This document shows positions 10,751-26,018 of a DNA stretch of 29,465 nucleotides, one piece after another. The stretch is from positions 1 through 29,465 of IMG/VR virus record IMGVR_UViG_3300042934_000760; one strand, written 5' to 3'. Source of the stretch: a virus. The translations under genes and the position numbers were made by a program. The notes below the pieces were generated by a model. The model worked only from the letters and a program-made list of their open reading frames with translations. It was not told the DNA's origin and made no database searches. Position 1 is the first letter of the stretch, and each line of letters starts with the position of its first letter.

Positions 10751-13126
10751 ATGAGTACTGTAATTCCAATCTACCCTTTCGATCCGGATGGTGACGCGGT
10801 TACGAACTTGGTGCACGAACAGCAGCCCTTGGAATCCAATGGAGTCTTTGACTACTTCTACGTGATGCCTCGGTCTGGTCCGTTCTACGCCGGTAGCGTA
10901 AAGCTCAAGCTGTTCCCAGGCGGCATTGACCTGATCGAAGGTAAAGACTACAACTTCGGCCACCACTTCATGGATGCATCGCATACCATTGGGCAGGCCA
11001 TTTACGGCTCCATCACGTTCTATGACCATACGCTCAAGGGCATCTTGGACATGGAGTACCAGACCCTCGGTGGTGTCTGGATGCTGGATGAGGCCACGAT
11101 CCTTGAGATCCTCGCCAACGAGATCCGCAACCCACGCATCACCAGCTGGGAAACCATCGTCGAACTGCCGGAACGTTTCCCGGTTGTCAACCACAAGTTC
11201 GACATCGAAGACTTTGTCGGCATGTCCGATGTCACCGAGAAATTGGAAGGCATCGAAGAAGCCATCAAAGCGATGGGTAACGGCGCCATTGACGAGCACG
11301 TCAACAACAAGGCGAACCCACACGAGGTGACTAAGACCCAAGTCGGTCTCGGGCTGGTGGACAACTACCCAACGGCGTCGATCGTGGAAGCCCAAGCGGG
11401 TACGGCCAACAACCGCTTTATGACCGCGCTGCGGGTACGTCAGGCGATCGAGGCCATCGCAACGACTGCGCTGAACACTCACTTGGCTGATCTGAACAAT
11501 CCCCACCAAGTGACCAAAGCGCAAGTGGGTCTGGGCCTGGTGCAGAACCTGCAACTGCCTACTCAGGCTGAAGCAGAAGCAGCGTCTTCAAACGCGCGTT
11601 ACATGACGCCGCTCAGAACCCGCGAAGCGGTCATGGCCATTGTCGGCAATGACTACGTCGCGCACGCTGCCAACCTGAACAACCCTCACCAAGTCAACAA
11701 AGGTCACGTAGGTTTGGGCTCTGTCCAGAACTACCCGTTGGCTTCGCAGGCTGAGGCTGAAGCCGGTACCAGTAACCAGCTGTACATGACCCCGCTGCTG
11801 ACTCGCTACATTATTACCGCCATGGTGGGTACAAAGGTCGACGGTCACATCGCCGACAAGAACAACCCGCACATGACCACCGCTGCTCAGATTGGCTTGG
11901 GGTTGGTGCAGAACTTTGGCGTGGCTTCTGAAGCCGAGGCTCGAGACGCTACCGTCGACAACAAGTACATGACGCCCCTCAAAGTGCGTCAGGCAATCAA
12001 CGAGCTGGTCGGTGATGCAGCCATCGGTGAACACGTTACCAACTTCAGCAACCCTCACCAGGTGACGGCGGCTCAGGTCGGTGCTCCATCGCTGGCGGCT
12101 TACAACCAAGCCATGGCTGGCAAACTGGGGACGGGTGAAACTGCTGCCAACTCCAACCAGTTGTTCGGCATGAACCAGACCGCGCTGCAAGCGTGGATTG
12201 CTGCCATGACCGTGGCCAACGCCACGAACGTAGGTGGCTTGTCTGTTCCGGCCTTGACTGCGCAGATCCTGACGGGTAAAGCGGCTGACTCCAACAAGCT
12301 CGACGGCAAGACGTACGCTGACATCTACGCAGCGATCACGTCCAACATCGCGGGCAGTTCGATTCAGTACACCATCCCTGAGATGCCATTGGTGATCGAT
12401 GGGGCTAACGGTGAAGTCCAACCGCCTCGTAACTGGGTGCAGTTCGGTATCATCAAACAGCCGACGTCTTCGACCATCTGTGATTTCCAGCTGATGCTGA
12501 CCGGTGGCCGTAACGACGAATCGTTGGACGATGAACTGCAATGCAACGCGATCCTGACGGTTTCGGCTAACGCTGAAGTACCAGACGGGGGTGTGCTGAG
12601 CATTAACGTCAAGCACGCTGAACTGAAGTACCTGAACGCCGTAGCAAGTCCGATCAAGGTCGGCTATCGCTCCAGCGGTACCGGTGCCAATGCCATCCTC
12701 GAACTGTGGGTGGAAGCTGCTGCCTCGCGGACTTCGATCATCGTCACCGAGCTGTCGTACAACCGCTTCACGTTGGCACCGATCACCGTTCCTGAACTGC
12801 TGAGCGAAGTCACGACAGTCCGTCCGACGGGCTTGGTGGACGCTGATGTGATCAGTGACGGTCGGGCTGAAGCCACGGCATTGAACAACGCGCTGAACGC
12901 TTTCATTGCTCGCCGGGATAACCCGCACCAGGTAACGAAAGCTCAAGTGGGTCTGGCCCTTACGCCGAACTACGCAGCCGCAACAGACGCTGTGGCAGCG
13001 GCAGGGACTTCGACCAATACCGTGATCAACCCCAAGCAGGTGTCCGACCGTATCAACGTTATCACCGATGCTATTTTGGTGAGCATGACGTCGACGCTGA
13101 ACGACTGCCTCGCGGACTTCGCTTAA
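10751..13126 (+). CDS. Tail fibre protein 1 (repeat-containing)
   Basis: 791 residues. The N-terminal domain (1-180) starts IPIYPFDPDGDAVTNLV and shares a clear pattern with the second fibre gene (YPFD, GPFY, DY, TG, MEYQ..GG), so it is probably the attachment domain. From about residue 189 come four consecutive units of 61-62 residues, each opening NPHQVTKAQVGLGLVQN and continuing with ...YMTPL..R..I..., followed by a fifth partial opening and, near the end (about 723), a sixth. This repeat type is typical of trimeric phage tail fibre and side-tail-fibre shafts. Between lies a beta-rich region (about 535-690) that may be a receptor-binding or carbohydrate-binding domain. A terminator follows directly. 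The protein binds host receptors at the virion tail. Confidence 0.92.
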   Translation: MSTVIPIYPFDPDGDAVTNLVHEQQPLESNGVFDYFYVMPRSGPFYAGSVKLKLFPGGIDLIEGKDYNFGHHFMDASHTIGQAIYGSITFYDHTLKGILDMEYQTLGGVWMLDEATILEILANEIRNPRITSWETIVELPERFPVVNHKFDIEDFVGMSDVTEKLEGIEEAIKAMGNGAIDEHVNNKANPHEVTKTQVGLGLVDNYPTASIVEAQAGTANNRFMTALRVRQAIEAIATTALNTHLADLNNPHQVTKAQVGLGLVQNLQLPTQAEAEAASSNARYMTPLRTREAVMAIVGNDYVAHAANLNNPHQVNKGHVGLGSVQNYPLASQAEAEAGTSNQLYMTPLLTRYIITAMVGTKVDGHIADKNNPHMTTAAQIGLGLVQNFGVASEAEARDATVDNKYMTPLKVRQAINELVGDAAIGEHVTNFSNPHQVTAAQVGAPSLAAYNQAMAGKLGTGETAANSNQLFGMNQTALQAWIAAMTVANATNVGGLSVPALTAQILTGKAADSNKLDGKTYADIYAAITSNIAGSSIQYTIPEMPLVIDGANGEVQPPRNWVQFGIIKQPTSSTICDFQLMLTGGRNDESLDDELQCNAILTVSANAEVPDGGVLSINVKHAELKYLNAVASPIKVGYRSSGTGANAILELWVEAAASRTSIIVTELSYNRFTLAPITVPELLSEVTTVRPTGLVDADVISDGRAEATALNNALNAFIARRDNPHQVTKAQVGLALTPNYAAATDAVAAAGTSTNTVINPKQVSDRINVITDAILVSMTSTLNDCLADFA
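11315..12084 (+). repeat. Tail fibre 61-residue repeats, fibre 1
   Basis: In-frame protein repeats: the NPH openings fall at 11315, 11498, 11681, 11864 and 12050, that is spacings of 183, 183, 183 and 186 bases. An isolated further copy opens near 12919. The DNA has diverged, so the periodicity is conserved at protein level. Confidence 0.9.
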
Positions 13127-13198: not shown

Positions 13199-14647
13199 AT
13201 GAGCAGCCGACCCTTAATTGCCAAGTACCCGTTCGATAAGACGGGCACCTCGCTGACTAACAAAGTCGTGGGTGAGGTTCTGGAGATCAACTCGGCGCGG
13301 GAACGCGCATTTGTCCCTCTGGCCGGACCCTTTTACACCGACAGCATGGTCATCTACAACAACGACACGGGCAAACCGCTGGTGCCGGTGGATGACTACA
13401 TTCTTTGCCAACCGTTTCAACAAGCCTCGCTGCGTACCGGTAAGGACGTGGAGTGTGTGGTCTGGATCAAGCTGAACGCACCGATCACAGTCCGCATGGA
13501 ATACCAAGTGGTCGGTGGTGAGTACTCCTGGAACATCCAGGCGTTGGTCGACATGATCAACGAGATCGACCTTGACGGCCGCCCTGTGGCTTGGGGGTCG
13601 ATCATCGGCAAGCCTACGGCGTACCCGCCTGCACCGCACATCCACGACATCGGGGATTCGTACGGTTGGGAATACGTGGTGTTCCAGCTCGAAGGGATTC
13701 GTAACGCCATCCTCGTGGGTGACGAAGCGTCTCACGACGAACTGCGCCAACAGATGAAGGCGATGCACGACGAGTTGGAAGCGCTGATCAAGCTGACTGA
13801 CAACAAGATCGAAGATCACCTCAAGGACATGGCCAACCCTCACCAGACCACCAAAGTGCAAGTAGGCTTAGGGCTGGTGGAGAACTTCCCAATTGCCAGT
13901 GCTGCTGAAGCCTTGGCAGGGACAGTGACCAACCGTTACATGACCCCTGCATTGACCACTTCGTTGATCAACCGCATCACGGACGAGAAGCTCAACGCTC
14001 ACGTCAATGATAAGAACAACCCACACCAGGTGACGAAAGCACAGGTTGGGTTGGGTTCGGTACTGAACTACGGCGTGGCCTCGGTTGCAGAAGGTCAGGC
14101 TGGTGTGGCTAACGACAAGTACATGACTCCGGCTGTGACCAAAGCGGCCATCATGACCTTCGTCGGCGATGCGTTCAACGCTCACGTAGCGAACATGAAC
14201 AACCCGCACAACACTACCAAGGCACAGGTCGGTCTGAGCCTCGTTCAGAACTTCGATGTGGCCACCACGGCGGAAGCACAAGCCGGTGTTGCAACGAACA
14301 AGTACATGACGCCTCAGTTGACCAAGGCTGCGATCACGCAAGCGGTGGGCACCGGGCTTCAACAGCACTTGGGCGACTACAACAACCCGCACCGTACCAC
14401 GGCTGCTCAAGTGGGTCTGGGGAACATCCCGAACGCGATCACTCGCGGTCGTTCGGTGAACTCCGATGGTCAGTTGCTGACCGCAGGCTCCATGTTCGAT
14501 CACTTGAACTCCGGTGACCACGACGGTCGTTACATCCTGATCGCCAACGTGGCGCAACAGGGTTCGATCTACGTGACCGGCAGTAAAGCGTACGTGGCAG
14601 TCGATGGCGGATGGCGTCAATTCTGGCCTGCGACTTGGAATGGCTAA
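13199..14647 (+). CDS. Tail fibre protein 2 (paralogue of fibre 1)
   Basis: 482 residues. The N-terminal domain (1-170) is a diverged copy of that in fibre 1 (KYPFDKTGTSLTNKV, GPFYTDS, MEYQVVGGEYS). Four 61-residue units follow, opening NPHQTTKVQVGLG, NPHQVTKAQVGLG, NPHNTTKAQVGLS and NPHRTTAAQVGLG. The end (SKAYVAVDGGWRQFWPATWNG) resembles the tip found in many prophage and phage fibre proteins. GGAG lies eight bases before the ATG. No terminator is visible after it; the JmjC-like gene starts 42 bases downstream, so this fibre may be co-transcribed with the first half of the radical SAM region. It is probably a host-contact fibre. Confidence 0.92.
   Translation: MSSRPLIAKYPFDKTGTSLTNKVVGEVLEINSARERAFVPLAGPFYTDSMVIYNNDTGKPLVPVDDYILCQPFQQASLRTGKDVECVVWIKLNAPITVRMEYQVVGGEYSWNIQALVDMINEIDLDGRPVAWGSIIGKPTAYPPAPHIHDIGDSYGWEYVVFQLEGIRNAILVGDEASHDELRQQMKAMHDELEALIKLTDNKIEDHLKDMANPHQTTKVQVGLGLVENFPIASAAEALAGTVTNRYMTPALTTSLINRITDEKLNAHVNDKNNPHQVTKAQVGLGSVLNYGVASVAEGQAGVANDKYMTPAVTKAAIMTFVGDAFNAHVANMNNPHNTTKAQVGLSLVQNFDVATTAEAQAGVATNKYMTPQLTKAAITQAVGTGLQQHLGDYNNPHRTTAAQVGLGNIPNAITRGRSVNSDGQLLTAGSMFDHLNSGDHDGRYILIANVAQQGSIYVTGSKAYVAVDGGWRQFWPATWNG
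13835..14423 (+). repeat. Tail fibre 61-residue repeats, fibre 2
   Basis: NPH openings at 13835, 14018, 14201 and 14384, an exact 183-base period. The same unit occurs in fibre 1, so the genes share a modular shaft that could recombine. Confidence 0.9.
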
Positions 14648-14689: not shown

Positions 14690-15199
14690 ATGCAACGCAG
14701 GTTAACGGAGTTTGTCTTCAACGGTATCAATAAACAGCTACTGATGGTGGATGAGTTCCTCTCGCACCCTTACCCGTACAGTCAAGGCTTAGTCAAGATT
14801 GTGCGGGACAATGGCACCTTCGATGCCATGAGCATCATGGACACCATTGAACACAACGACAAGCCTATCAAAATTGAAGGGTATGAAAAGATGAACGCGG
14901 TGTTCCATGAGGAATGTCGTCGGTTGGCAGCTCACTTCGACCACCACGGTCCGGTGACCTGCCACCTGTTCATCTCTCCTGAAGATTCCTCCAGTTTCCC
15001 GATGCACACTGACTTGGACGACGTGGTCGTTCACATGGTCAAAGGGCAGAAAACCTTCGAGTTCCCCACCGGTTCATTGAAACTGTGTGAGGGTCAATCC
15101 ATTTATATTCCCAAGGGCACGCCGCACCGCGCAATCAATACCCATGATTCGTTGATGCTCAGCTTTGGCCTTGAGTTATTCCACGTCGAGAAACTGTAA
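14690..15199 (+). CDS. JmjC/cupin-like Fe(II) oxygenase candidate
   Basis: 169 residues with a double-stranded beta-helix pattern. The iron-site motif is HTD (H106, D108) followed by H146 in IYIPKGTPHRAIN, with KGQKTFEF between; this matches cupin-8/JmjC-type 2-oxoglutarate dioxygenases, a family that often hydroxylates protein side chains. The N-terminus is short and has no membrane segment. I chose the ATG at 14690, preceded by GTGGGGTGTGAG, over a GTG at 14678. Its stop overlaps the start of the first radical SAM gene (TAATG), so both are likely made together, and it comes right after a tail fibre gene. Function is probable as an iron enzyme; the substrate is unknown, and a non-enzymatic cupin cannot be ruled out. 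Confidence 0.72.
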   Translation: MQRRLTEFVFNGINKQLLMVDEFLSHPYPYSQGLVKIVRDNGTFDAMSIMDTIEHNDKPIKIEGYEKMNAVFHEECRRLAAHFDHHGPVTCHLFISPEDSSSFPMHTDLDDVVVHMVKGQKTFEFPTGSLKLCEGQSIYIPKGTPHRAINTHDSLMLSFGLELFHVEKL

Positions 15200-16254
15200 T
15201 GGATGCATCTGCTAACCAGAAGACGATCTACGTCAAGACCACGGGAACGTGCAACCTCAATTGCTCTCACTGTTTCACGAACGGCCGTTCTGGCGACAAG
15301 ACCCAGTTCTGCCCAGATACCGTGGGGGACTGGGTTGCTGACTTTATGTCGCGTTACCCGACCGAGACTCGCTACCACATGGAGTTTCACGGCGGGGAGC
15401 CTTTCCTGGTACCTGTAGCCAAGATGAAGCAGTTCGCTGATCGTTTCTGGGACAACCTGAACGTATCGTTCTGCGCCAACAGTAACCTGACGTTCAAACT
15501 GACGGATGAGATCATCTCGTTCATCAAGGAATACTTCGGGTCGCACATTGGGACCAGTTGGGACCAGCACATCCGCTGGGCCAACCAAAAGCAATACGAC
15601 CTGTGGCGCAGCAACTTGGATGTCCTCAAGAGCCACGGGATCAGCATCGGTTTGAAAGTGTCGGTGAGCAAGAGCCTGATCGAAAGCTCAGTGGACTGGT
15701 TCATTGACGAGATGGAGAGCTTTGGTGTTGAAGAGGTGTCCCTTGAACGTTTGACGGTCGATGGAAATGCTGAGATCAACATGGACATCTTCCCGGACAA
15801 CGTGGCGCAGGATGCGTGGTACTTGGCGCTGTACAACCGCTACCATGAACGCAAGCCTAACGTCTCGATCCGCCAGATGGACGTGCTCAAGACCAAGATC
15901 TCCACTGGGATTGTCAAGATCGACACCAACTGCCGCAACTGCGAGCAGAACCTGGTGACGATCAACTCCAATGGCACACTGTCAGGTTGCCCTAACGCAG
16001 CCACTCAGAAACACCACGCCAAGCTGGAACAAGGGGTGGATGCGTTTCTGGTCTCTGAAGGCCGACTGGATCAGATCGCCACAGAGTTGACATGGCACGA
16101 CAACTGTCTTGCTTGCGATGTATTTGATTTATGCGGCGGGGATTGCCACCGGCTGCCTTGGCAGAACGGGCGCTGTGGGGGATTGAAGAACACCCTGCGC
16201 GTGCTGTCTGGTCGAGGAGCCCCTGCTGCTTCCAACTTGATCTTCAAGGGGTAA
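15199..16254 (+). CDS. Radical SAM/SPASM enzyme 1 (rSAM-1)
   Basis: 351 residues. The [4Fe-4S]/SAM motif CNLNCSHC (C18, C22, C25; CX3CX2C) is followed by HGGEP, the SAM-binding GGE motif, and a half-barrel pattern. The C-terminal third has the cysteine set of a SPASM domain: CRNC, then INSNGTLSGCPNA, then CLACDVFDLCGGDCHR and a last C in NGRCGG. Such enzymes, including anaerobic sulfatase-maturing enzymes and RiPP maturases, use a 5'-deoxyadenosyl radical to modify peptides or proteins. It overlaps the JmjC-like gene by one base and is followed three bases later by the Cys/His-tailed protein, the most attractive substrate candidate. A non-peptide substrate remains possible. Confidence 0.93.
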   Translation: MDASANQKTIYVKTTGTCNLNCSHCFTNGRSGDKTQFCPDTVGDWVADFMSRYPTETRYHMEFHGGEPFLVPVAKMKQFADRFWDNLNVSFCANSNLTFKLTDEIISFIKEYFGSHIGTSWDQHIRWANQKQYDLWRSNLDVLKSHGISIGLKVSVSKSLIESSVDWFIDEMESFGVEEVSLERLTVDGNAEINMDIFPDNVAQDAWYLALYNRYHERKPNVSIRQMDVLKTKISTGIVKIDTNCRNCEQNLVTINSNGTLSGCPNAATQKHHAKLEQGVDAFLVSEGRLDQIATELTWHDNCLACDVFDLCGGDCHRLPWQNGRCGGLKNTLRVLSGRGAPAASNLIFKG

Positions 16255-16257
16255 GAC

Positions 16258-16797
16258 ATGCCAGATGAAATTATCAGACAGCGGGTGGCCGACATCGGCA
16301 ACGCTTACATCCGCAACAACGCCAATAGTGGGATCTCATGGGGGACAAACAGTTACCCTTCCGGTTCCATTGCTGGTTGGTTCCGTGGGACAACCGCGGG
16401 GCGTGGGGAGGCCCTGAGTGCCGGTAGCTTTGCAGGCGGTGAAACCTCTGCCAGTCAGACTGCGGCGGTCCTGCGAAACTTCGTGAACGTCTTCACTGAG
16501 ATCCGGACCACGCGGATTGTAATTTACTACCTCGACTACCGTTATGGAACGACGGTCCAGTACGACGGTACCGCTGTGGCTCACACCGTCTATGGCGTGG
16601 GCGATGTCGGCAGCAACGTAGGTTTGCCCGGCCTGACCGCCGGTGCTGAAATGGACCTGAACAACCTGAATGCCAGCTGTAACAACCTTTTGAACAATTA
16701 CTGGGCCAACGCCCGTAATACAGTCCTTACGCTGACCAACACGATCTGCCACACCAGTTGCCACGGTAACTGTCACTGTGCCCGCGGTCGTCGTTGA
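16258..16797 (+). CDS. Cys/His-tailed protein, candidate substrate of radical SAM enzymes
   Basis: 179 residues, unrecognised as a family. Residues 1-60 are Gly/Ser/Ala-rich, the middle (about 60-130) is beta-rich with aromatic residues, and about 130-160 is Asn-rich. The C-terminus is striking: C164-H-T-S-C168-H-G-N-C172-H-C174-A-R-G-R-R, that is CX3CX3C with each of these cysteines followed by His, then a free basic end. One more Cys is near 143. Location between rSAM-1 and the next genes, and the CXXX-repeat tail, recall precursor peptides of radical SAM RiPP systems, though it is longer than usual. Alternatives are a metal-binding virion protein or an unusual haem-binding tail (CXXXCH). 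AAGGGG lies just before the ATG. Confidence 0.8.
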   Translation: MPDEIIRQRVADIGNAYIRNNANSGISWGTNSYPSGSIAGWFRGTTAGRGEALSAGSFAGGETSASQTAAVLRNFVNVFTEIRTTRIVIYYLDYRYGTTVQYDGTAVAHTVYGVGDVGSNVGLPGLTAGAEMDLNNLNASCNNLLNNYWANARNTVLTLTNTICHTSCHGNCHCARGRR

Positions 16798-16810: not shown

Positions 16811-17671
16811 ATGTCTGAAGAAAAGCCCCAACTATACGGTTATCCAATCCCTGACATGAAAAAGGTGGTCGCTGCATTGAGCGAACCGGATAAACCGAAG
16901 GTAACAAAGGTAGCCAGTGGCGAGGTCATTCAGATCCATACCGCGGCGCCTATTCCTCCGGCTGAACTGAAGCGTAAGTTCTCCGAAGACGTCGAGTTCA
17001 TCTTGGACTACGACGCTGGGCGCTTCAAGGGCAAGACGCTGATGGTCTACCTCTCCAACTTGGACATCAAGGTTCAGTTGAAGTTGAATGACGAGACTTC
17101 AGCCCTCGAGTTGCTGGCGGAGTACCTGAAGATCACCACGCTGGTCAAGATCCCTGAAATGGAGAACTTGGCCATCAACATGCTGCTGGCGCACATGGGT
17201 CGTCCGAACTTCCTCGACTTTGACCCGTCGGCCTTCTTGGCGGAGAACAAAGCGTCGCTGGACATGTGGGAACGTCGGATCAACTCCCTGACGCTCTTTG
17301 CCATGTACTCTCTGGACAAGGAGAAGTACAAGGACTACATCGAAAGCTTCCCGGAAGATCCGGACGATGGCGTGACGGGCCTCAACTTCGTGCACCTGAT
17401 CAAACATGATCTGTTTCCGCTGCTGTTGGCCGATGTGCCAGAGAGCAAGTGGAACTGGAACAAGAAGTACTTCACCGAGTACATGTTTGCCGGTGCCAAC
17501 CTGTTCAAGTATTTCGCCGATGACAACAACCCGCTGTTTGTGGGCATCTTGGCCATCAGCGATCCCGAAGCGTTCAAAGCGATTGCCCCACAGATCGAGA
17601 AAACCCGCCAAGGGTTGAACGAACTCAAAGCCTCGCTCCAGTTGAGGATCGACCATGTACCATCTGTTTGA
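16811..17671 (+). CDS. Unknown protein inside the radical SAM region
   Basis: 286 residues, unrecognised. Soluble; the first 55 residues are Pro/Lys-rich and probably flexible (MSEEKPQLYGYPIPDMKKVV), the rest is largely helical with many Leu, Phe and acidic residues. There are no Cys-rich motifs, so it is not itself an iron-sulfur enzyme. I start at the ATG at 16811 with GGAG six bases upstream; a GTG at 16778 would overlap the previous gene. It overlaps the next gene by 17 bases, indicating coupled expression. Possible roles are a chaperone or docking partner for the substrate, or a tail assembly protein; the sequence does not decide. Confidence 0.8.
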   Translation: MSEEKPQLYGYPIPDMKKVVAALSEPDKPKVTKVASGEVIQIHTAAPIPPAELKRKFSEDVEFILDYDAGRFKGKTLMVYLSNLDIKVQLKLNDETSALELLAEYLKITTLVKIPEMENLAINMLLAHMGRPNFLDFDPSAFLAENKASLDMWERRINSLTLFAMYSLDKEKYKDYIESFPEDPDDGVTGLNFVHLIKHDLFPLLLADVPESKWNWNKKYFTEYMFAGANLFKYFADDNNPLFVGILAISDPEAFKAIAPQIEKTRQGLNELKASLQLRIDHVPSV

Positions 17672-18713
17672 CAAAGTCTACGTCGATACCGAATCGCGCG
17701 TGGATCGGTCTCAGGACCACATCACCATTGGCCCGCGCATTGGCTACGAGTTCTTTGCTGCACCGAACACAGTGGCCGGTGAGCAGTTCGGCTTTGCTCA
17801 GTCGCTGGACAACTGGACCCCTGAAGAGTTCGAGACCATCTTCGGTAAAGCCCTGCTCGATGGCGACAAAGTCTACGTCTACGCTGACGGTCAGTCGTAC
17901 CTGCGCATTTACACGATGCTGGTTAAAGCGTTGCTGCCCAAAGTGGACTTGGACACCTTCAAGTGGATCATGCTCTGCAAGAAGGCCACGTTCAACACCT
18001 CGCTCACCAACATCCGCAAGCCTGCGACTGATGTCCTGTCGACGGTCGTGATCAACACCAAGGTCATCGAAGAGCTGTTTGCCTTTGAAGACCCGCTGTT
18101 GGGTGCCATGGAAACCCTGGTGCAACTGGACGAGCATAAGCTGTCGCTCGAATGGCGCATCCTGCGCCTGAAGACTGACGGTCGTGTGGGCAAGATCCCG
18201 CGGTTGCTCAAAGGTCTGCTGCGCCGGATTGCTCTGGCCAACACGCACGATGCGTTGGACGTCTGGGGCCGTATCCTGACTGACCAAGAGCACTGGGAGT
18301 TCGGTGGCTGCGACATGGAGACCCTGCTCAATGCAGACACGGTCTTCCAAGGCTCCCTGAACCTTCACTACGCCTCAAGTCAGATCTTCCTGCAACCTGA
18401 CCTCTTCAAGAACCCACCGCCTGATGAGTGGATCTGTGGGCTCTTGCAGGAACTGATCGAGTTGCTCGAGCATTGCGACGAAGGGCCGACGGCTGGCCGT
18501 ACACGTTTGGTTCTGAAGTTGCTACAAGACTCGGACAAGAACGTCTACGACCCAACGGTCTGTCTGGAACGGGTCATGACCATGTTCTACGGCAACAAGC
18601 GTCTCGCACTGCCTAACCGCGATTCCGGCAAATACGACGAGAACCTCATCCGTTTCATCCTCGGCACTGACAAGGCGCGTCTGCAAGCCTGTGTCCAAGG
18701 AGCGCAATGGTGA
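17655..18713 (+). CDS. Unknown protein inside the radical SAM region
   Basis: 352 residues, unrecognised. It starts MYHLFDKVYVDTESRVDRSQ; the first half is mixed alpha/beta, the second largely helical (LKGLLRRIALANTHDALDVW and LLQELIELLEHCDE). No membrane segment and no clear catalytic motif; five cysteines are scattered without cluster spacing. GAGG lies seven bases before the ATG, which overlaps the previous gene by 17 bases; its own end overlaps rSAM-2 by 7. The tight coupling on both sides suggests that it works with rSAM-2 and the upstream protein, as a partner or as a substrate, but that is inference. Confidence 0.8.
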   Translation: MYHLFDKVYVDTESRVDRSQDHITIGPRIGYEFFAAPNTVAGEQFGFAQSLDNWTPEEFETIFGKALLDGDKVYVYADGQSYLRIYTMLVKALLPKVDLDTFKWIMLCKKATFNTSLTNIRKPATDVLSTVVINTKVIEELFAFEDPLLGAMETLVQLDEHKLSLEWRILRLKTDGRVGKIPRLLKGLLRRIALANTHDALDVWGRILTDQEHWEFGGCDMETLLNADTVFQGSLNLHYASSQIFLQPDLFKNPPPDEWICGLLQELIELLEHCDEGPTAGRTRLVLKLLQDSDKNVYDPTVCLERVMTMFYGNKRLALPNRDSGKYDENLIRFILGTDKARLQACVQGAQW

Positions 18714-19708
18714 GTAATCTGATCCCTGTAGTGGACTTATTGCAGGACAAGAAAGGGAAGTTCAAGGAAGCTCACCTGATCCTGTTCGAAAAATGCAATA
18801 TGCGTTGCTCTTTCTGCCACCAAGACCATGACAGTGAAGTCGGTCTGAACGGGGATGCGATCTCAGCCAAAGTTGATACGTTCTTAGCCAACGCTCACCC
18901 GGATGAGGCCTACGTGGTCAACATGACGGGTGGGGAGTTGTTCATGGACGACATCCCAGATTGGATGTTTGGCCATTACCTGATTGCAGGTAAGCGCATC
19001 CTCAAGCATTTCAAAGAAGTGAAGCTGGTGTTCGGCACGAACCTCGTCTACGAGAACGTCACCCGTGTGCGCCAGCTGATCGAGAACCTCAAGCCGTACG
19101 GTCATGCGTGCCTGGCGACGTCATACGACCCCGCTGGCCGCTTCAACCCGAAGCAGCACCGTTTATTCCTGAAGAACCTCGATCTGGTGGAGGACTTGGT
19201 TGAGACGGTGAATGTCGTGATCACCCGTCAGAACATCCAGTTGTTCTTGGATGGCAATGAAGGGGAGGAGTTTGACAAGTTCTGCATCCTCTACGACGTC
19301 TACTTCGACCATTACATCCCCAGCGAGCGTTACACGGAACACCAACCGTCTGAAGACCAGATCAGTCAGTTGTACCTGACCCTCAATAGACGCTACCCCG
19401 ATTCCTACCCCATCAAGGCATGGAAAGAACAGCGCTTTAATGACACAACCTGTCGCTCCACGAAGATCATCAACAAAGATGGTGTCGTGACGACTTGTTG
19501 GTCTGAGGCCGGGAAAGACTCCATCCTCGATGAAGGTGCAGGGCTGGCCGCCAAACATGCCGCAGAAGAACGCTTCCTTGAGAAGTACGACTGTTTGGCC
19601 TGTGAGTACTACCAGCGTTGTGGCCTGCGGTGCTTCTTGCACCACAGCTTCGTGGAAGATGGCAGTAACGAGTGCCAGATCAAAAAGATGTTCGACGCAA
19701 TCCTGTAA
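18707..19708 (+). CDS. Radical SAM/SPASM enzyme 2 (rSAM-2)
   Basis: 333 residues. CNMRCSFC (C30, C34, C37) is a canonical CX3CX2C motif; MTGGELF supplies the GGE motif. The SPASM-type end reads TTCRSTKIINKDGVVTTC, then CLACEYYQRCGLRC and a last Cys in SNECQ. AAGGAG lies upstream of the ATG, which overlaps the previous gene by 7 bases. It is the last gene before a perfect 15-base hairpin, so it closes the first transcription unit of the region. Radical SAM chemistry on a peptide or protein is the likely role; sequence resemblance to rSAM-1 is limited mainly to the motifs, so it probably acts on a different site or substrate. Confidence 0.93.
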   Translation: MVSNLIPVVDLLQDKKGKFKEAHLILFEKCNMRCSFCHQDHDSEVGLNGDAISAKVDTFLANAHPDEAYVVNMTGGELFMDDIPDWMFGHYLIAGKRILKHFKEVKLVFGTNLVYENVTRVRQLIENLKPYGHACLATSYDPAGRFNPKQHRLFLKNLDLVEDLVETVNVVITRQNIQLFLDGNEGEEFDKFCILYDVYFDHYIPSERYTEHQPSEDQISQLYLTLNRRYPDSYPIKAWKEQRFNDTTCRSTKIINKDGVVTTCWSEAGKDSILDEGAGLAAKHAAEERFLEKYDCLACEYYQRCGLRCFLHHSFVEDGSNECQIKKMFDAIL

Positions 19709-19822: not shown

Positions 19823-20032
19823 GTGATTACCGAATTTCCTTTGACTGCTGATGGCTACGAAAGCGCTGTACAATGGATCAGAAGGCACGGTCATGCAGAC
19901 AAGCTGGAAGAGACGCCCACGCTGCCTTGCATGACCGTCATCATCCTTGCCAACCAACTCAGGAACCATCCTTGTGGATTTGATCATCAAGCCGACAGTG
20001 CGTTGCAACTTCAAGTGCACCTTTTGCTCTAG
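19823..20032 (+). CDS. Small upstream frame overlapping rSAM-3 (leader or displaced N-terminus)
   Basis: 69 residues from a GTG with GGAGG seven bases upstream, the best ribosome site nearby. It starts VITEFPLTADGYESAVQWIR, has no known motif, and overlaps the radical SAM frame by 59 bases in another reading frame. It may be a small protein that couples translation to rSAM-3, or the true N-terminus of rSAM-3 cut off by a one-base frameshift. A CTC-AGG pair near 19958-19963 is a place where a +1 shift would join the frames. Its codon use looks normal in its first 45 codons and less so beyond. Confidence 0.5.
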   Translation: MITEFPLTADGYESAVQWIRRHGHADKLEETPTLPCMTVIILANQLRNHPCGFDHQADSALQLQVHLLL

Positions 20033-21068
20033 CACCCATCTTTCTGACGATGTCACCGAGATTGTTGAACTGGCTGACATCGACGCGTTTATCAAACGCT
20101 ACCCATGGACCAACACCGTCATCTTGAATGGCGGTGATCCGTTGATGATGAAGCCGGAGTACTACTTCGCCATTATCGACATCCTGGAGAAGTACGACTG
20201 CCCTGCCAACTTGTCCTTTACCAGTAACCTCTGGGCTTTCTACAAGAAGCCGCTCAAGTGGGCACCCTTGTTCCGTCACCCGCGTGTGGCGATGACCACC
20301 TCGTTCCAATACGGGGATGCTCGCTTAAAAGGCGATGGTACGGTCTTTACCGAAGACGAGTTCGTTGACGTCACGGACCTGTTCTTTAAATACGTCGGTT
20401 ATCGCCCTGACTTCATTGCCGTCATTGACAAGTCCAATGAAGACACCGTGATTGCAACGGTTGAACTGGCCAAGCGGTTAGGTGTCGAGGCGAAAGTCAA
20501 TTATGCCGTGGCCTCAGGCCCTGTCGTGGAGAACCGTGGTGTCCTGATGGGCAATGCAAACACCATGTACACTCAAGCCGACATGTACGAGCAGTACTTG
20601 GCGATTCATGATGCTGGACTGGCACAGTACGAGTACAGCACCAAGCAAATGCTGATTCGGTTACGACATGGGGCGACCACTTGCCCATTGGCCCGTGATT
20701 GCGATTCGGGTATTCGTTCGATGCAGCCGGGGCGTAACTACCACTCCTGTGGGGCCTTCGGGGATGACCTTCAATACCCGATCGACTTTGACCGGGAAAT
20801 GGCCGGTGAGTTCTTCACCCCGTTGCAGAACCGTGAGGAACTGCACTCGATGAAGGATGCCTGCAACGCCTGTCCTATGTTTGCGATCTGCAACGGTTGC
20901 AAGAAGACCATTGCGGACACCAGGCGTCTGGGTCTGACCGAACACCATTGCCGCAAGATGAAATCCCTTGCGCCGCGCATCATTGCCTTGAACGGCATGA
21001 GCGAGTATCTGGAACCCACGCCGTACGAAGACGAATCTGTCCAGTTGATCCCGGCGTTGTCAATCTAA
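19974..21068 (+). CDS. Radical SAM enzyme 3 (rSAM-3)
   Basis: About 364 residues from a GTG at 19974, which has AGGA nine bases upstream; a TTG at 19947 is an alternative start. The iron-sulfur motif is CNFKCTFC (C11, C15, C18 from this start), followed by LNGGDPL, a GGE-like motif with Asp. The C-terminal SPASM-like set includes TTCPLARDC, NYHSCGAF, CNACPMFAICNGCKK and HHCRK. It leads a run of four radical SAM genes separated by 10 bases or overlapping. The start is unusual because there is no ATG before the cysteine motif and a well-supported small frame runs just upstream. Protein or peptide modification is likely; substrate unknown. Confidence 0.9.
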   Translation: MDLIIKPTVRCNFKCTFCSSTHLSDDVTEIVELADIDAFIKRYPWTNTVILNGGDPLMMKPEYYFAIIDILEKYDCPANLSFTSNLWAFYKKPLKWAPLFRHPRVAMTTSFQYGDARLKGDGTVFTEDEFVDVTDLFFKYVGYRPDFIAVIDKSNEDTVIATVELAKRLGVEAKVNYAVASGPVVENRGVLMGNANTMYTQADMYEQYLAIHDAGLAQYEYSTKQMLIRLRHGATTCPLARDCDSGIRSMQPGRNYHSCGAFGDDLQYPIDFDREMAGEFFTPLQNREELHSMKDACNACPMFAICNGCKKTIADTRRLGLTEHHCRKMKSLAPRIIALNGMSEYLEPTPYEDESVQLIPALSI

Positions 21069-21078
21069 AGAGTGTCCC

Positions 21079-22020
21079 ATGGAAAAGCCGTTTATCAACC
21101 TCAGCGTCAACCCGTGGTACTACTGCAACTTTCGCTGCAACTTCTGTTACCTCACCGAAGCACAGTTGAGCAACAAGCAGTTCTTGAGCCTTGAACGGTT
21201 TGAGGAGATGCTCGATGAAGTCATGGTCCATTATCAAGTGGGCCACATCGACATCTACGGTGGGGAAGTCTTGCTGCTGCCTGTCGAGTACCTGATGGGC
21301 TTGAAGGATATCCTGCACAGCCGCGGGATTGATGACATCGTCTTGGTGACGAACCTGTCCCTGACAAACGCGGTCAGTGAAGACCCGGACTTTGAGATCT
21401 CGGTCTCGTACGACTTCGGCGCACGGGAGAAGCATGAGCTGGTGTTCCAGAACATGCTCATGATGCCCAACCGGTTCAACATCCTGACATTGGCCTCTCG
21501 TACGTTCTTAGACACGGTGAGTGTGGACGAGTACGTTGACACCATGAACCTGCTAAGTCAGCTCAAAGGGGCTGAGATCAAGCCGTACAGCACCAACCAA
21601 GCCAACGTACACGATGTCAAGTACACCGAGTACGAAGAGTTCGTCTGGGCCGTGATCAATCACCCTGATCGGCGCTTCTACTTCGAGAACGAGACGCAGA
21701 TCAAAGCCTCGTTGGCCGGTGAGCGTAACGCGTTCAGCAACGACCATGTGTACATCACGCCTGAAGGCAAGTTCGCTGTGCTGGAGTTTGATGTCCACGG
21801 TCATGAATTCTTCTTGAACGTCGACACGGTCGAAGGCTATCAGGAATGGGCTGAGCTGGAAGTGGTCTACATCAAGGACAACTCGTTTTGCAAGACCTGT
21901 CCGTTCTTGGGCAACTGTTTGTCTGAACACTTGCGTGACGTGGAAAGTCTGGAGCATTCGTGCAACGGATTCCGAAACCTGTTAGAGAGGTATCAAGCCC
22001 ATGAAGATGGAACACGGTAG
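21079..22020 (+). CDS. Radical SAM enzyme 4 (rSAM-4)
   Basis: 313 residues. CNFRCNFC (C16, C20, C23) is the CX3CX2C motif, and IYGGEVLLLP the GGE motif. The C-terminal set is shorter than in rSAM-1 (CKTCPFLGNC ... HSCNG), consistent with one auxiliary cluster or a reduced SPASM domain. The N-terminus (MEKPFINLSVNPWYY) is short, as in many small radical SAM proteins. The start lies 10 bases after rSAM-3 and the end overlaps rSAM-5 by 20 bases. It is likely an additional peptide-modifying enzyme or a partner of one of its neighbours. Confidence 0.92.
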   Translation: MEKPFINLSVNPWYYCNFRCNFCYLTEAQLSNKQFLSLERFEEMLDEVMVHYQVGHIDIYGGEVLLLPVEYLMGLKDILHSRGIDDIVLVTNLSLTNAVSEDPDFEISVSYDFGAREKHELVFQNMLMMPNRFNILTLASRTFLDTVSVDEYVDTMNLLSQLKGAEIKPYSTNQANVHDVKYTEYEEFVWAVINHPDRRFYFENETQIKASLAGERNAFSNDHVYITPEGKFAVLEFDVHGHEFFLNVDTVEGYQEWAELEVVYIKDNSFCKTCPFLGNCLSEHLRDVESLEHSCNGFRNLLERYQAHEDGTR

Positions 22021-23083
22021 CGTCCAACACCGGCAGCGGCTGGAGATCACCCTGGACATCTTCCGGGGCTGTAAACATGCGTGCTCCGGTTGCATGATCG
22101 ACAAAGCCATGGGTGGGGATGTCACGGACATCCCTGAACTGCAAACCTTGATCCGTGAGATGGTCACGGCGGGTTACGTGGCGTTTGACTTGGGGGTGGG
22201 CCCTACGGACTACATGTCGTCGGAGAACACCCAGGAGGTCATGAGCAACCCGACCTTTCAAGCGATGGCACAGATGTTCCACCAAGTGACGTTCAACGCA
22301 GCGTTTCTTGAGAAGGACATGGACCAGTACGCCGCGATGGTGTCTGACATCGACGACGCTGTACCCGGCATGCCCATCCGTTTTCTCATCCCGGCCTCGC
22401 CTACGTTCTTTAAGACCGAGAAGTTCGGCAAGATGATCGAGGAGAAGTTGCAGTTTGTGAAAGACCAGTTCCAGCTAGCCTATCTCAATGAGGCAGGCTT
22501 TGTGGTCAACTGTACTCACGACACTGTGACCGATGACTTCGAAGCGCAGATGATGAACGGCTTTGACATCGAGTTCCCCGTGGAGAAGGATGACATTCTG
22601 AGCATCCCGTATGGCCGGGGTCAGAACAAGGACCTGATGATGGCGCAGAACATCCGTCGGGTGTCGCACCGCATCTCCTCCTTTTATGCCCAGCTCAATG
22701 GGGTCGATGAACGCCGTCGCAACCCGGACCTGCATCTGGACACAGGGACCATGGTGAACCTGTTGTACACCGGCGGGAAACTGTACTGGGTGCCGTTTCT
22801 GAAGGACGACTGTCCCTTCATTGACGATGACTTCAGCATTCCTCGTCCTTGGACGATGGAGAACCTGCTGGCCACCCGTACAAAGGCCCTGCAAGCCTCG
22901 CTAGAGCATTTAGAAGGCACGCCATGCCTCGTGTGCCCTTATCTGTCGAGCTGTGCTGAGAAGGGCATCACAAGCATCATGAAGAAGATGGCCATCAAGG
23001 ACTGTCTAGTGGGGTTAGAACATGCTCTCCCAATTGGTAGCCCAGACCTTCAACATCTCGTTGGAAGTGTTGACCGGGTGTAG
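22001..23083 (+). CDS. Radical SAM-like protein 5 (rSAM-5), diverged GGE region
   Basis: 360 residues. CKHACSGC (C24, C28, C31) keeps CX3CX2C, but the usual GGE motif is replaced by GVGPTDYMS at the same place. The end has CLVCPYLSSC and a further Cys (IKDCLVG), like the auxiliary-cluster half of a SPASM domain, after a RPW stretch (FSIPRPW). It is a tandem paralogue of rSAM-6 (shared VGPTD, GG.LY.VP, PRPW, CX2CX5CA). AGAGG lies ten bases before the ATG; the last 62 bases overlap rSAM-6. It is clearly of the radical SAM family by motif; whether SAM binding is intact without GGE is an open point. Confidence 0.85.
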   Translation: MKMEHGSVQHRQRLEITLDIFRGCKHACSGCMIDKAMGGDVTDIPELQTLIREMVTAGYVAFDLGVGPTDYMSSENTQEVMSNPTFQAMAQMFHQVTFNAAFLEKDMDQYAAMVSDIDDAVPGMPIRFLIPASPTFFKTEKFGKMIEEKLQFVKDQFQLAYLNEAGFVVNCTHDTVTDDFEAQMMNGFDIEFPVEKDDILSIPYGRGQNKDLMMAQNIRRVSHRISSFYAQLNGVDERRRNPDLHLDTGTMVNLLYTGGKLYWVPFLKDDCPFIDDDFSIPRPWTMENLLATRTKALQASLEHLEGTPCLVCPYLSSCAEKGITSIMKKMAIKDCLVGLEHALPIGSPDLQHLVGSVDRV

Positions 23084-24065
23084 GTACAGTTGTGCCGGGT
23101 GTACAGTGGAGAAGAACTTTGCTCCACTGGACATCTCGGAGAAAGACACGGACGATCTGATTGCTTTGATCCACAGTCTTAAAGACGACGGGTTCCGGTT
23201 GCTGGAATACCGTGTGGGTCCAACCGACATCATCAGTGCAGACAATGGCTTTGCAGCGCTGGACCATCGACTCTCTCGTGAGTTCGGTAAGCTCTACAAA
23301 GCCTTGAACCTGAACATGGCGATGCTCGACACCAAAGGCTTTGAAGAGTTGGCCACGTTGGTGGAGGACGTCATTCCGGGCAAGAAGCTCAGCGTGACGA
23401 TTCCTATGTCGTTAAAGAATACCCGCAATACCAAGTACCTTGCAGAGCTTAAAAAACGCATTCTGTATTTCAAGAGCCTGCTGCCCACCGTTGATTTCAA
23501 CCGGGTGTACTTGGCATTGAACGTCGGCGAGGATACGCTCAAGCACCTGAGCACGGAAAGCTACGACCACGCGCATGACTTGGATCTGGGTGTGGGCATT
23601 GTGGTGGAGTTCCCGTTCAACCATTCCCGTAAAGGGTTTGGGAATCTGCTGGTCGCTGAAGAGTTCAAGGCTGACTTGACTGAATTCATTGACTTCATGA
23701 AGACGCGGGTCAACACCAAGAGCTTTCGTCCGTTGCAGCCTGCTGTTCTAGAAGGCTTTGAGTTCACTTACCGTGGGGGCGAGCTGTACTCGGTTCCAGT
23801 GGTCGTGGAGAACCTGCCTGTGTTTCATCCTAAGTTCCTGTTGCCCCGTCCGTGGAATGCTGCGACGGTGTATGGTTACAAGGAGGAGACCTACTACAGC
23901 AACCTTGAGAAGTACGTGGTGCACCCAACCTGTGGGGACTGCTGCTTCTTGGATCACTGTGCACGGGGTGACGTTCACCGTATCATGGAATTGATCGGCA
24001 CAGACAAATGCCTGACCGACTCCAAAAACCAACTTCAGTACTATCACGTCGAGAGTCCTTCATGA
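23022..24065 (+). CDS. Radical SAM-like protein 6 (rSAM-6), paralogue of rSAM-5
   Basis: 347 residues. CRYSCAGC (C20, C24, C27) gives CX3CX2C; YRVGPTDIIS takes the place of GGE as in rSAM-5. The C-terminal cluster is CGDCCFLDHCARG and a later DKCLTD. The whole protein parallels rSAM-5, including GGELYSVPVV and LLPRPWN, so the pair arose by duplication and may act as a heterodimer or on two positions of one substrate. Its ATG lies within the end of rSAM-5 (62-base overlap), with GGGG upstream; its end overlaps the next oxygenase gene by an ATGA. This makes it part of one tightly coupled unit. Confidence 0.85.
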   Translation: MLSQLVAQTFNISLEVLTGCRYSCAGCTVEKNFAPLDISEKDTDDLIALIHSLKDDGFRLLEYRVGPTDIISADNGFAALDHRLSREFGKLYKALNLNMAMLDTKGFEELATLVEDVIPGKKLSVTIPMSLKNTRNTKYLAELKKRILYFKSLLPTVDFNRVYLALNVGEDTLKHLSTESYDHAHDLDLGVGIVVEFPFNHSRKGFGNLLVAEEFKADLTEFIDFMKTRVNTKSFRPLQPAVLEGFEFTYRGGELYSVPVVVENLPVFHPKFLLPRPWNAATVYGYKEETYYSNLEKYVVHPTCGDCCFLDHCARGDVHRIMELIGTDKCLTDSKNQLQYYHVESPS

Positions 24066-24493
24066 AGCTTGTACAAGTTGATGACGTTCCCATTCCAGAC
24101 TGGCTGCTTGAAGCAGCCTTCTGCCAACCCAATAAGGCTTACATCAGTGAAAGATCGATTCAAGACTTCGCGTGGGACGTCCTCCTCCCGCTGGCGCGTC
24201 GTCATCCTGACGTTAACATTTCTTTGCGGCCCTGTTCCAACCATGTCCACATCGGCGATGTTGGCCTGACGCCGCACAACCACTTGCCACATGCGTTTAC
24301 CTCTGTCCTCTATCTGGAGGATTCAATGGGTGAACTCGTGCTCAACCCGGATACTGCTGAAGAGCGCATGATCAACCCGATCAAAGGCCGCTTTGTGATG
24401 TTTGCAGGTGACATCATGCATTCGGTGAACCCATCCCCTTGTCCAGAACTACGCATCTCCTTGGTGACGAACTATGAATACCCCTCCGTATAA
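24062..24493 (+). CDS. 2-oxoglutarate/Fe(II) oxygenase-like protein
   Basis: 143 residues. The double-stranded beta-helix pattern is seen in PHNHLPHAFTSVLYLED, GELVL and GRFVMFAGDIMHSVNP..ELRISLVTN. Likely iron ligands are H72 or H74, an acidic residue (E91) and H120, with R131 as the 2-oxoglutarate anchor, as in the family of short phage and bacterial 2OG oxygenases. I start at the ATG at 24062, overlapping the rSAM-6 stop; a longer frame from 24008 would lie inside rSAM-6. It probably hydroxylates a protein or small molecule in the same pathway. The acidic ligand is not certain. Confidence 0.75.
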   Translation: MKLVQVDDVPIPDWLLEAAFCQPNKAYISERSIQDFAWDVLLPLARRHPDVNISLRPCSNHVHIGDVGLTPHNHLPHAFTSVLYLEDSMGELVLNPDTAEERMINPIKGRFVMFAGDIMHSVNPSPCPELRISLVTNYEYPSV

Positions 24494-24911
24494 AGACTAT
24501 CAGCGCCTGTACAACGAACTGGTGCAAGAACACCCTGACGACTTCGGCAACTTCGAGTACATCGAAGAAGACGAGATCGTACAGAACGCGCTCAAGTACT
24601 TCGACAGCGCCACGTTCCCGCTGATCTACCCGGCCAAGAGCTACGCGGTGGCTTTGATCTACGCGTTCAAGATCAAAGAGGTCTACGGTGTGCCTGTGTT
24701 GGAGACGTTGAACGACCCCGACCTGTTCTTAGGCCAAGACCCGTACTTCGTGCCGTACAGCTGCGACCCTGAAAGTTACCAAGGCATCATTGCCGCGCTG
24801 CAAGACCGTCCGGGTTGGCTTGGACAGGGCTGGGCACCGAAGTCAGTCGAGTACTTCAACCTCGAGTGCACCGAGGAGGGGATCAACAAAGTACTGGACG
24901 CCATGAAATGA
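24474..24911 (+). CDS. Unknown small protein in the oxygenase group
   Basis: 145 residues, unrecognised. Acidic, rich in Tyr, Phe, Pro and Asp/Glu (MNTPPYKDYQRLYNELVQEH), without cysteine clusters or His motifs and without membrane segments. It overlaps the previous oxygenase by 20 bases and the next by an ATGA (24908-24911). The embedding between two oxygenases suggests a joint role, perhaps as a substrate or a specificity partner, but the sequence does not show it. Confidence 0.78.
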   Translation: MNTPPYKDYQRLYNELVQEHPDDFGNFEYIEEDEIVQNALKYFDSATFPLIYPAKSYAVALIYAFKIKEVYGVPVLETLNDPDLFLGQDPYFVPYSCDPESYQGIIAALQDRPGWLGQGWAPKSVEYFNLECTEEGINKVLDAMK

Positions 24912-25465
24912 ACCTGATCGAGCCGTGGAAGATTCAGATCGGTCAGTTCAACCTGGCCGACAAGTTTGACATGGAACAATTTGCAACCGAGGTGTACACC
25001 CTGTACGCCATGACTGGAGGGGAAGACGAGGCTCAGTCCAAGTTAGACCCTGACCTCTTCCCTTTAATCCTGGAAATGCGTGATGCTGTCATTACACCCG
25101 CTGTACGTGAGTTTACCCAAAGTTGCTTTGACTACCCTCTTGACGATTTCGACGTTGAGACCAACGGAAAATGGATTCCGCCGGGCGAAGGACTCTATCC
25201 CCATTATCACCCCAGCTCCTGCTTCTCTGCCATCGTTTACCCTGGGGATTCCCCCAGCGCTCTGAACCTGTTTGACCCGCGGGGCAATGCGTGCCGTGGG
25301 TACCCGAAAGCCATTCGGGACAAGTTCATGACCAAGATGCAGATCTCACCCAAAGCCGGGGACGTCTATATCCTGCCCAGTTACATTCAGCACAGCGTTT
25401 CGTATGTACAAGAGGAGACTCGCCTCTCGCTGCTGCATGAATACTACCCACGCAATACAAGGTGA
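24908..25465 (+). CDS. 2OG-Fe(II) oxygenase (tandem copy A)
   Basis: 185 residues. The beta-helix core carries HYH (H99, H101), NLFDPRG with D123, and IQHSV with H162, followed by R172 in the RLSLL strand: a complete iron and 2-oxoglutarate set of the 2OG-FeII_Oxy_5 style (H.H....S..YP.......DPR...G.....PSY.QH). The first 60 residues form a helical lead (MNLIEPWKIQIGQFNLADKF). The neighbouring gene has the same residues at the same positions. The start is the ATG at 24908, overlapping the previous stop; a frame beginning at 24815 would lie within the preceding gene. The likely action is hydroxylation of a protein or metabolite. Confidence 0.88.
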   Translation: MNLIEPWKIQIGQFNLADKFDMEQFATEVYTLYAMTGGEDEAQSKLDPDLFPLILEMRDAVITPAVREFTQSCFDYPLDDFDVETNGKWIPPGEGLYPHYHPSSCFSAIVYPGDSPSALNLFDPRGNACRGYPKAIRDKFMTKMQISPKAGDVYILPSYIQHSVSYVQEETRLSLLHEYYPRNTR

Positions 25466-25469
25466 CTAC

Positions 25470-26018
25470 ATGGAAATCTTTCAACCGTGGCAAATCAAAC
25501 TTGCGCGCGTCAACATCGCTGACAAAGTCGACCTCGAAGCGTTGACCGGCGAGATCCACACCCTGCACTGCCTGTCGCCTCGTGAATCGGCCGTGCCGCA
25601 TCCGGTGACGGAGGATCAGTTCCCGCTGATCTGTGCCCTGCGTGATGGGTTGCTGACCGATCTGGCCAAGGACTACATCAAGGAAGCCTTCGGCGTAGAA
25701 CCTGAGAACATGACCATCGACACCTTTGGTAAGTGGTTCACCAAAGGCGAAGCATTGGGTTCTCACCTGCACGGTAATTCGTTGGTGACCAGCGTGTTCT
25801 ACCCGGCCACGTACGGCAACGGCATGACAATGGTTGACCCACGTTTCAACGCCAGCCGCGGTTACCCGCGCAGCATCCGTGACAACCACTTCGGCGATCA
25901 TGTCCTGCGCCCAGTAGCCGGTGACGTGTTCTTCGTCCCCAGTTACGTGCAGCATTCCATTGCACCCGTCGGTGAAGACCTGCGTGTGTCGCTGATCAAC
26001 GACTTCTTCTTCCAATAA
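25470..26018 (+). CDS. 2OG-Fe(II) oxygenase (tandem copy B)
   Basis: 182 residues, paralogue of the gene just upstream. H99, H101, D123, H162 and R172 fall at exactly the same residue numbers as in copy A, and stretches such as RGYPRSIRD and GDVFFVPSYVQHS are near copies. It begins MEIFQPWQIKLARVNIADK. AAGGTGA lies just before the ATG at 25470; a longer frame from 25404 is antithetical to the overlap with copy A and is rejected. Two such enzymes side by side suggest different sites or substrates. It ends the run of iron enzymes and is followed 10 bases later by an unknown gene. Confidence 0.88.
   Translation: MEIFQPWQIKLARVNIADKVDLEALTGEIHTLHCLSPRESAVPHPVTEDQFPLICALRDGLLTDLAKDYIKEAFGVEPENMTIDTFGKWFTKGEALGSHLHGNSLVTSVFYPATYGNGMTMVDPRFNASRGYPRSIRDNHFGDHVLRPVAGDVFFVPSYVQHSIAPVGEDLRVSLINDFFFQ

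Follow-up and report, generated by a model that had tools for sequence, protein, structure and literature searches.

The DNA that we analyzed (hereafter the window) is a virus record of 29,465 bases. It contains a module in which a protein with a Cys-His-rich C-terminal tail is encoded among radical SAM (rSAM) and oxygenase genes (Table 1). Upstream of this module lie two tail- or fiber-like open reading frames (ORFs) that start at positions 10751 and 13199. The first was judged fiber-like solely by its visible NPH-VTK repeats, and a Pfam search with it returned nothing useful. Each of the enzymes rS2 to rS6 contains a CX3CX2C motif. The arrangement recurs across contigs: a cupin/JmjC gene is followed by an rSAM gene, the gene of the tail protein, that of a conserved protein, further rSAM genes, and finally the genes of 2OG oxygenases.

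Table 1. Features of the module in the window
Feature	Position	Strand	Evidence or remark
Tail/virion structural protein with fiber-like repeats, upstream of module	13199..14647	+	phrog_2163 (virion structural) 3.5e-133; phrog_13857 (tail) 3.3e-65
Cupin/JmjC_2-like iron oxygenase candidate, 173 aa	14678..15199	+	PF08007 8.6e-08, 32.2 bits vs cut-off 22
Radical SAM/SPASM enzyme rS1, directly upstream of tail protein	15199..16254	+	CX3CX2C, CX9-15GX4C, CX2CX5CX3C
Tail-bearing protein, 179 aa, ATG start	16258..16797	+	Compact predicted fold, flexible C-terminus
C-terminal tail CHTSCHGNCHCARGRR, residues 164-179	16747..16794	+	Three CHx[S/N/A] units and RGRR; proposed modified segment
Conserved partner gp17 (phrog_20767), ATG 16811	16811..17671	+	Conserved; no known fold assigned
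Conserved cluster protein gp18	17655..18713	+	Recurrence in cluster
Radical SAM/SPASM-like enzyme rS2	18707..19708	+	Motif and profile matches
Radical SAM enzyme rS3	19947..21068	+	PF04055 over cut-off; ~50% identical in Agrobacterium and Sinorhizobium phages
Radical SAM enzyme rS4	21079..22020	+	PF04055 over cut-off
Radical SAM-like enzyme rS5	22001..23083	+	CKHACSGC; no Pfam match
Radical SAM-like enzyme rS6	23022..24065	+	CRYSCAGC; start uncertain, overlaps rS5
2OG-Fe(II) oxygenase	24008..24493	+	PF13640
Conserved cluster protein or2	24474..24911	+	Recurrence in cluster; sits among the three 2OG oxygenases
2OG-Fe(II) oxygenase	24908..25465	+	PF13759, searched from 24905
2OG-Fe(II) oxygenase	25404..26018	+	PF13759; inner ATG may be start

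An earlier note on this DNA had drawn attention to C164, C168, and C172, each followed by His, to an ARGRR end, and to a gap of three bases between the rSAM gene and the gene of the tail protein. All of these features can be read in the sequence: the last residues of the ORF are TNTICHTSCHGNCHCARGRR, the rSAM stop codon ends at 16254, and the next ATG stands at 16258. The same note had also listed C174; this residue is present in the window protein but is not a general feature, since only 14 of 166 unique tails have a Cys at this place. The pattern CH..CH..CH did not occur once in 200,000 shuffles of the tail protein. Attachment of heme c to the tail was rejected because a CxxCH motif is absent from the sequence.

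An AlphaFold2 model of the tail protein calculated with 57 sequences has a mean pLDDT of 91.7 and a pTM of 0.83. The last blocks have pLDDT values of only 73 and 53, which predicts a flexible tail. The Foldseek relatives of this model are uncharacterized viral proteins only, and a Foldseek search of the PDB gave no match with E ≤ 0.001; no close solved structure was found. The model of gp17 (mean pLDDT 91.0) misses the first Met, and the gp17 searches were run on 16814-17668, one codon short at the start; structure searches found no convincing solved match (best Z 3.6 over 66 residues, rmsd 3.6). Despite these empty structure searches, both proteins may have a known fold.

How strictly the tail is tied to rSAM genes was examined by searches that were blind to part of the motif. 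Using the protein body without the tail as a query against viral contigs, we recovered 62 relatives. The earlier note had staked its proposal on homologues of this protein lacking neither the tail nor a nearby rSAM gene, and this expectation held: all 62 end with C...C...C...R.RR, with His after each Cys in all 29 distinct tails, and all 62 have an rSAM gene nearby, in 59 cases with a frame that ends at most 80 bases upstream of the matched stretch. A pattern that fixed only Cys and left the His places free matched 57 stretches, and one that fixed only His and left the Cys places free matched 51; with either pattern, rSAM loci contained 30 motif genes, all of which read CH-CH-CH. Among the rSAM-less stretches of both scans no CH-CH-CH was found except at L136 and L302, which share contigs with L026 and L030, where rSAM genes are present. 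These two scans and the body-only search are the independent tests of linkage, with some contigs shared between scans; tail conservation in our alignment A2 is not independent because its proteins were picked by motif.

The reverse search from rS1 found 28 viral loci, and in 26 of them the next gene encodes CH..CH..CH. Locus L036 carries the variant CHTSCHSNCNCN-RGRR, in which Asn replaces the third His, and at L027 the sequence ends 2 bases beyond the rSAM match, which leaves the next gene out of reach. In the stretch examined there was no rSAM gene around 9 of 165 unique tails. For 125 tails with at least 1300 bases upstream, an rSAM frame lies within 30 bases upstream in 77 cases and none lies upstream in 36, many of which are tandem tails with rSAM genes downstream.

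For comparison with viruses at large, we compiled 50 tail records (from at least 80 loci, without short records or contigs covered before) and 50 control records, namely those of at least 18 kb among 80 listed loci of a control pattern; this pattern replaced two earlier ones that matched 0 and 2 times. PF04055 was found in 50 of the 50 tail records (45 over the cut-off, mostly with 3-6 matches) as opposed to 6 of the 50 controls, which contain less sequence given added record lengths of 3.65 Mb for the tail set and 2.78 Mb for the controls. One control virus (L224, record G083, 182,566 bases) has 14 rSAM matches, and the Cys-His tail pattern was not found in it. Many rSAM genes alone thus do not imply a tail, and those of L224 may have a different substrate.

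The numbers bear on the idea that the rSAM genes strengthen the host through auxiliary metabolic or repair functions, with the tail protein adjacent by chance. Such roles have been proposed for related clusters: the accessible parts of the respective reports put the rSAM genes of phage DT01 down to DNA repair or host metabolism (PMC8541153) and suggest a metabolic advantage for those of the Campylobacter phages CP220 and CPt10 (PMC2853527). Against this stand the contrast between tail records and controls, a gene order that is constant beside fiber genes across many contigs and in several named phages, and the maturase-like SPASM domains, so that we regard chance adjacency as very improbable.

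The nearest annotated relative of the window is Pseudomonas phage pPa_SNUABM_DT01, with 69% identity for rS1 and 49% for the tail protein. Among 50,697 phage records, tblastn with the tail protein as the query matched seven. The DT01 match (E 1e-40) spans the full length; the six others go through the tail alone, with E values of 0.2 to 3 that make these matches weak by themselves. In all six records examined (MF403008, a duplicate of NC_042013, was left out) the tail gene directly follows an rS1 homologue. With rS1 as the query eight phage records matched, the eighth being Thermus phage phiLo (22.9%), and no Cys-His tail occurs in the stretch of phiLo that was read. The bodies of seven aligned proteins, including that of the window, are 19-49% identical to the window's, and 10 of the 15 invariant columns fall in the last 16 residues. 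Searching by tblastn with two other tail proteins produced no convincing annotated phage.

Single-linkage clustering placed 155 of 166 bodies in one cluster. Profile comparison links the window-type bodies to 257-aa bodies (99.6%) and the latter to three further clusters; the tandem 126-aa family, the FLC8 type, and the bodies of L083, L168, and L172 were not joined. At several loci (L037, L060, L069, L078, L102, L110, and others) the tail gene occurs as a tandem pair; each product has about 126-140 aa, the two tails are almost identical, and paralogues resembling rS5/rS6 come next. By profile comparison the bodies of these tail proteins have no detectable relation to the window protein. In two Burkholderia phages the rSAM cluster encloses a pair of neighboring genes with a dihydrofolate reductase annotation (L007:16861-18038 and L008:16771-17984). 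A scan of genome contigs gave 19 stretches with 16 real in-frame tails. L160 and L167 have no in-frame tail and that of L161 lies inside a 29-residue frame; these three were counted as chance matches. Half of the 16 (L158, L159, L163, L168, L170, L171, L172, and L175) come from Bdellovibrio/Bacteriovorax-type assemblies and may belong to phage contigs, proviruses, or host genes. The carriers of the tail protein are many large, unrelated bacterial viruses, and the arrangement is general across many tailed phages.

The tail places that the search pattern left free (second place, third place, and the G before RR) are informative about the repeating unit. In a set of 166 unique terminal tails, Ser, Asn, or Ala occupies the third place of the first, second, and third unit in 161, 165, and 166 cases, respectively. 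Ser or Asn fills this place in 467 of 498 units, Gly in none (it is found 77 times at the second place), and a single His is missing. Since places outside the pattern are still constrained in this way, the unit is best described as C-H-x-[S/N/A]. G precedes the final RR in 151 of the 166 tails.

R-x-R-R terminates most tails, and this basic end could in principle be a protease or assembly-recognition signal that is removed or bound, with the Cys-His units as a spacer or disulfide clamp. The L031 protein lends some weight to this idea, as its Cys-His units precede a Peptidase_S74 domain instead (PF13884, 1.5e-11; the only relative in which it was found). Yet L031 and also L034 retain the Cys-His units without RxRR. 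Two further proteins (L021:11037-11717 and L028:11036-11737) carry an enlarged form of the tail: it has 13 and 14 CH units, respectively, spaced by VPV or VV. The grown tails and the loss of RxRR suggest that function resides in the units rather than in the end, and a recognition signal is improbable. At L024:11622-11680 the gp17 gene begins with MSCHSNCHANAGR after a good ribosome site, which places a partial tail motif at an N-terminus.

Is the tail protein part of the virion, as the earlier note had suspected? The protein itself matched no tail-fiber family, and its sole match is phrog_35144, of unknown function. On other contigs we took 10 proteins encoded beside the module or close to it: 8 of them match tail or tail-fiber families, among others, and 6 match phrog_19602 (tail fiber). 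The families phrog_22593/phrog_19602 represent a C-terminal domain shared by large module neighbors (e.g., L045:6029-9031 and L074:2670-5831), and the tail protein could dock onto this domain. S74 domains, such as that of L031, are self-cleaving chaperones of trimeric fibers and spikes. In Agrobacterium phage Atu_ph07 the tail protein is gp170 and gp171 is an rSAM enzyme. The accessible text on this phage states that virion proteins identified by ESI-MS/MS are encoded mostly in clusters, including CDS 170-215 (PMC6102473). That this cluster starts exactly at 170 suggests that gp170 was detected, judging from the cluster edge in the text rather than from a peptide table; the cluster also takes in the rSAM gene gp171. 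Together, the tail-fiber neighbors, the S74 fusion in one relative, and the Atu_ph07 cluster edge make it quite probable that the tail protein is in the virion.

We then turned to the question as to what the enzymes may do. The CX3CX2C core of rS1 (C18-C22-C25) is invariant in 32 relatives, as are the cysteines of its SPASM set, which consists of CX9-15GX4C, CX2CX5CX3C, and a last Cys. rS1 scores 26.2 of 27 bits with TIGR04085. Among NCBIfam models, the best matches of rS1 are PapB, AmcB, and YhhB, three maturases that cross-link peptides by bonding a Cys or aromatic side chain to a carbon close by. A viperin-like defense function was dismissed because rS1 (27.3 of 180 bits) and rS4 (34.3 of 180 bits) remain below the curated cut-off. 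In cyclophane formation the rule is His-x-Ser/Asn; a third place that always offers a beta carbon fits this rule, and the strict Cys fits a thioether. Likeness to maturases, the third-place rule, and JmjC_2 chemistry lead us to propose cross-linking and hydroxylation of a fiber-tip tail.

The tail, its strict conservation, its constant linkage to rSAM genes, the gene order, and the enzyme motifs are established at the level of sequence. They point to a virion protein of the tail-fiber region with a tail that is cross-linked and probably hydroxylated by enzymes of the cluster, a reading that we consider probable; that the tail is a substrate of these enzymes is very probable. The protein would fold as a compact domain and expose a flexible tail of CHx[S/N/A] repeats plus Arg-x-Arg-Arg. 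Before or during fiber assembly, rS1 and other rSAM enzymes of the cluster would cross-link this tail, and the iron oxygenases would probably hydroxylate it. The acting enzyme may not be the same everywhere, since phages with tandem tails have another rSAM paralogue closest to the tail genes. As for the bonds, each unit could be closed by a His-to-beta-carbon link, by a Cys-thioether, or by both, and either assignment has less than an even chance; a His cross-link is at least as likely as a thioether because of the strict His and the never-Gly third position. For the modified tail, a role in contacting the host or in stabilizing the tip has an even chance.

Strict retention of both Cys and His would also be expected of ligands. 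Fiber and spike tips are known to contain His clusters, and HxH iron sites exist in T4 gp37 and in P2-like spikes. The tail could accordingly be an iron- or zinc-binding tip, with the rSAM enzymes acting on a sugar or another protein. This model leaves unexplained why the tail is always accompanied by rSAM genes (62 of 62) and why the third place prefers Ser, Asn, or Ala and excludes Gly; we hold it to be unlikely. A conserved Cys-His run beside cross-linking-type rSAM enzymes suggests that the end of the fiber is probably rebuilt chemically by the virus's own enzymes.

Phage rSAM clusters have been noticed before. The accessible parts of published reports describe eight rSAM genes in a structural cluster, termed highly unusual (PMC12390700), pelagimyophages with rSAM cassettes in their host-recognition region (PMC7029224), and rSAM genes in phage annotation lists (PMC8066314, PMC5468394). 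A literature search with subscription papers and bioRxiv preprints mostly outside its scope returned nothing on phage or viral rSAM or RiPP virion modification, nor on the motif. As far as these searches reach, the arrangement of tail and rSAM genes is not described as a modification system. Gene clusters so far ascribed to metabolism thereby gain a concrete candidate substrate, which is checkable by mass spectrometry in the cultured phages pPa_SNUABM_DT01, FLC6, FLC8, SURPRISE13, Atu_ph07, and Phosso. Should the proposal be true, viruses make RiPP-like cross-linked particle tips, a new layer of fiber chemistry, and a new enzyme-substrate pair is on offer in the strict CHx[S/N/A] code. More speculatively, and with somewhat less than an even chance, jumbo and other tailed phages may display a ribosomally made, rSAM-cross-linked peptide as a fiber tip, with units closed by His-to-beta-carbon and Cys bonds and decorated by oxygenases; such a particle would carry a natural-product-like tip that is either receptor-binding or armored.

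Among known systems, the CXXX-repeat/rSAM-SPASM pairs (TIGR04115) and the ranthipeptides (PapB, CteB) share the four-residue Cys spacing beside a SPASM enzyme, and the tail does have a Cys every four residues. TIGR04115 matches 20 of the 32 rS1 relatives with E ≤ 1e-3 (best 1.5e-9) and is outside the best 25 for the window protein. PapB is the NCBIfam model that rS1 resembles most, and CteB is among the solved structures nearest to its profile, together with anSME (4k36/4k37, the best), 8vpo, and ChlB. However, rS1 reached no curated cut-off of the named NCBIfam peptide maturases (best, PapB, 51 of 340 bits). Further differences of the phage system are that His follows every Cys, that a folded domain of 160 aa precedes the tail, that several rSAM enzymes and oxygenases are present, and that phages encode it; the scores lie far below the cut-offs.

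The HxsABCD system and the three-residue cyclophane RiPPs (FxsB, GrrM, YhhB, AmcB) have in common with the tail that His-x-[Ser/Asn] repeats end a longer protein, and HxsB-type matches occur in 28 of 32 rS1 relatives. HxS repeats are indeed present at the C-terminus of the proposed target, but with an invariant Cys ahead of each His; the cut-offs of HxsB (35.6 of 370 bits) and HxsC (at most 20.5 of 267.9 bits) were not reached. Unlike in cyclophane RiPPs, the scan with free His places found only His, and no Phe, Tyr, or Trp, at that place.

QhpD and the anaerobic sulfatase maturases, the latter being the best solved matches of the rS1 profile, are SPASM enzymes that act on proteins rather than short peptides. 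The phage system differs in having no CxPxR site, and rS1 stays below the cut-offs (44.7 of 349 bits). JmjC_2 ribosomal oxygenases (YcfD, NO66, MINA53) hydroxylate Arg or His, both of which are present in the tail. The window cupin matches their family above the cut-off, but it is short, and its target is putative. Finally, fiber tips with HxH metal sites (T4 gp37) and S74-processed fibers resemble the tail protein in their His-rich end and, in one relative, the S74 domain, whereas Cys-His pairs and dedicated rSAM enzymes distinguish the phage system.
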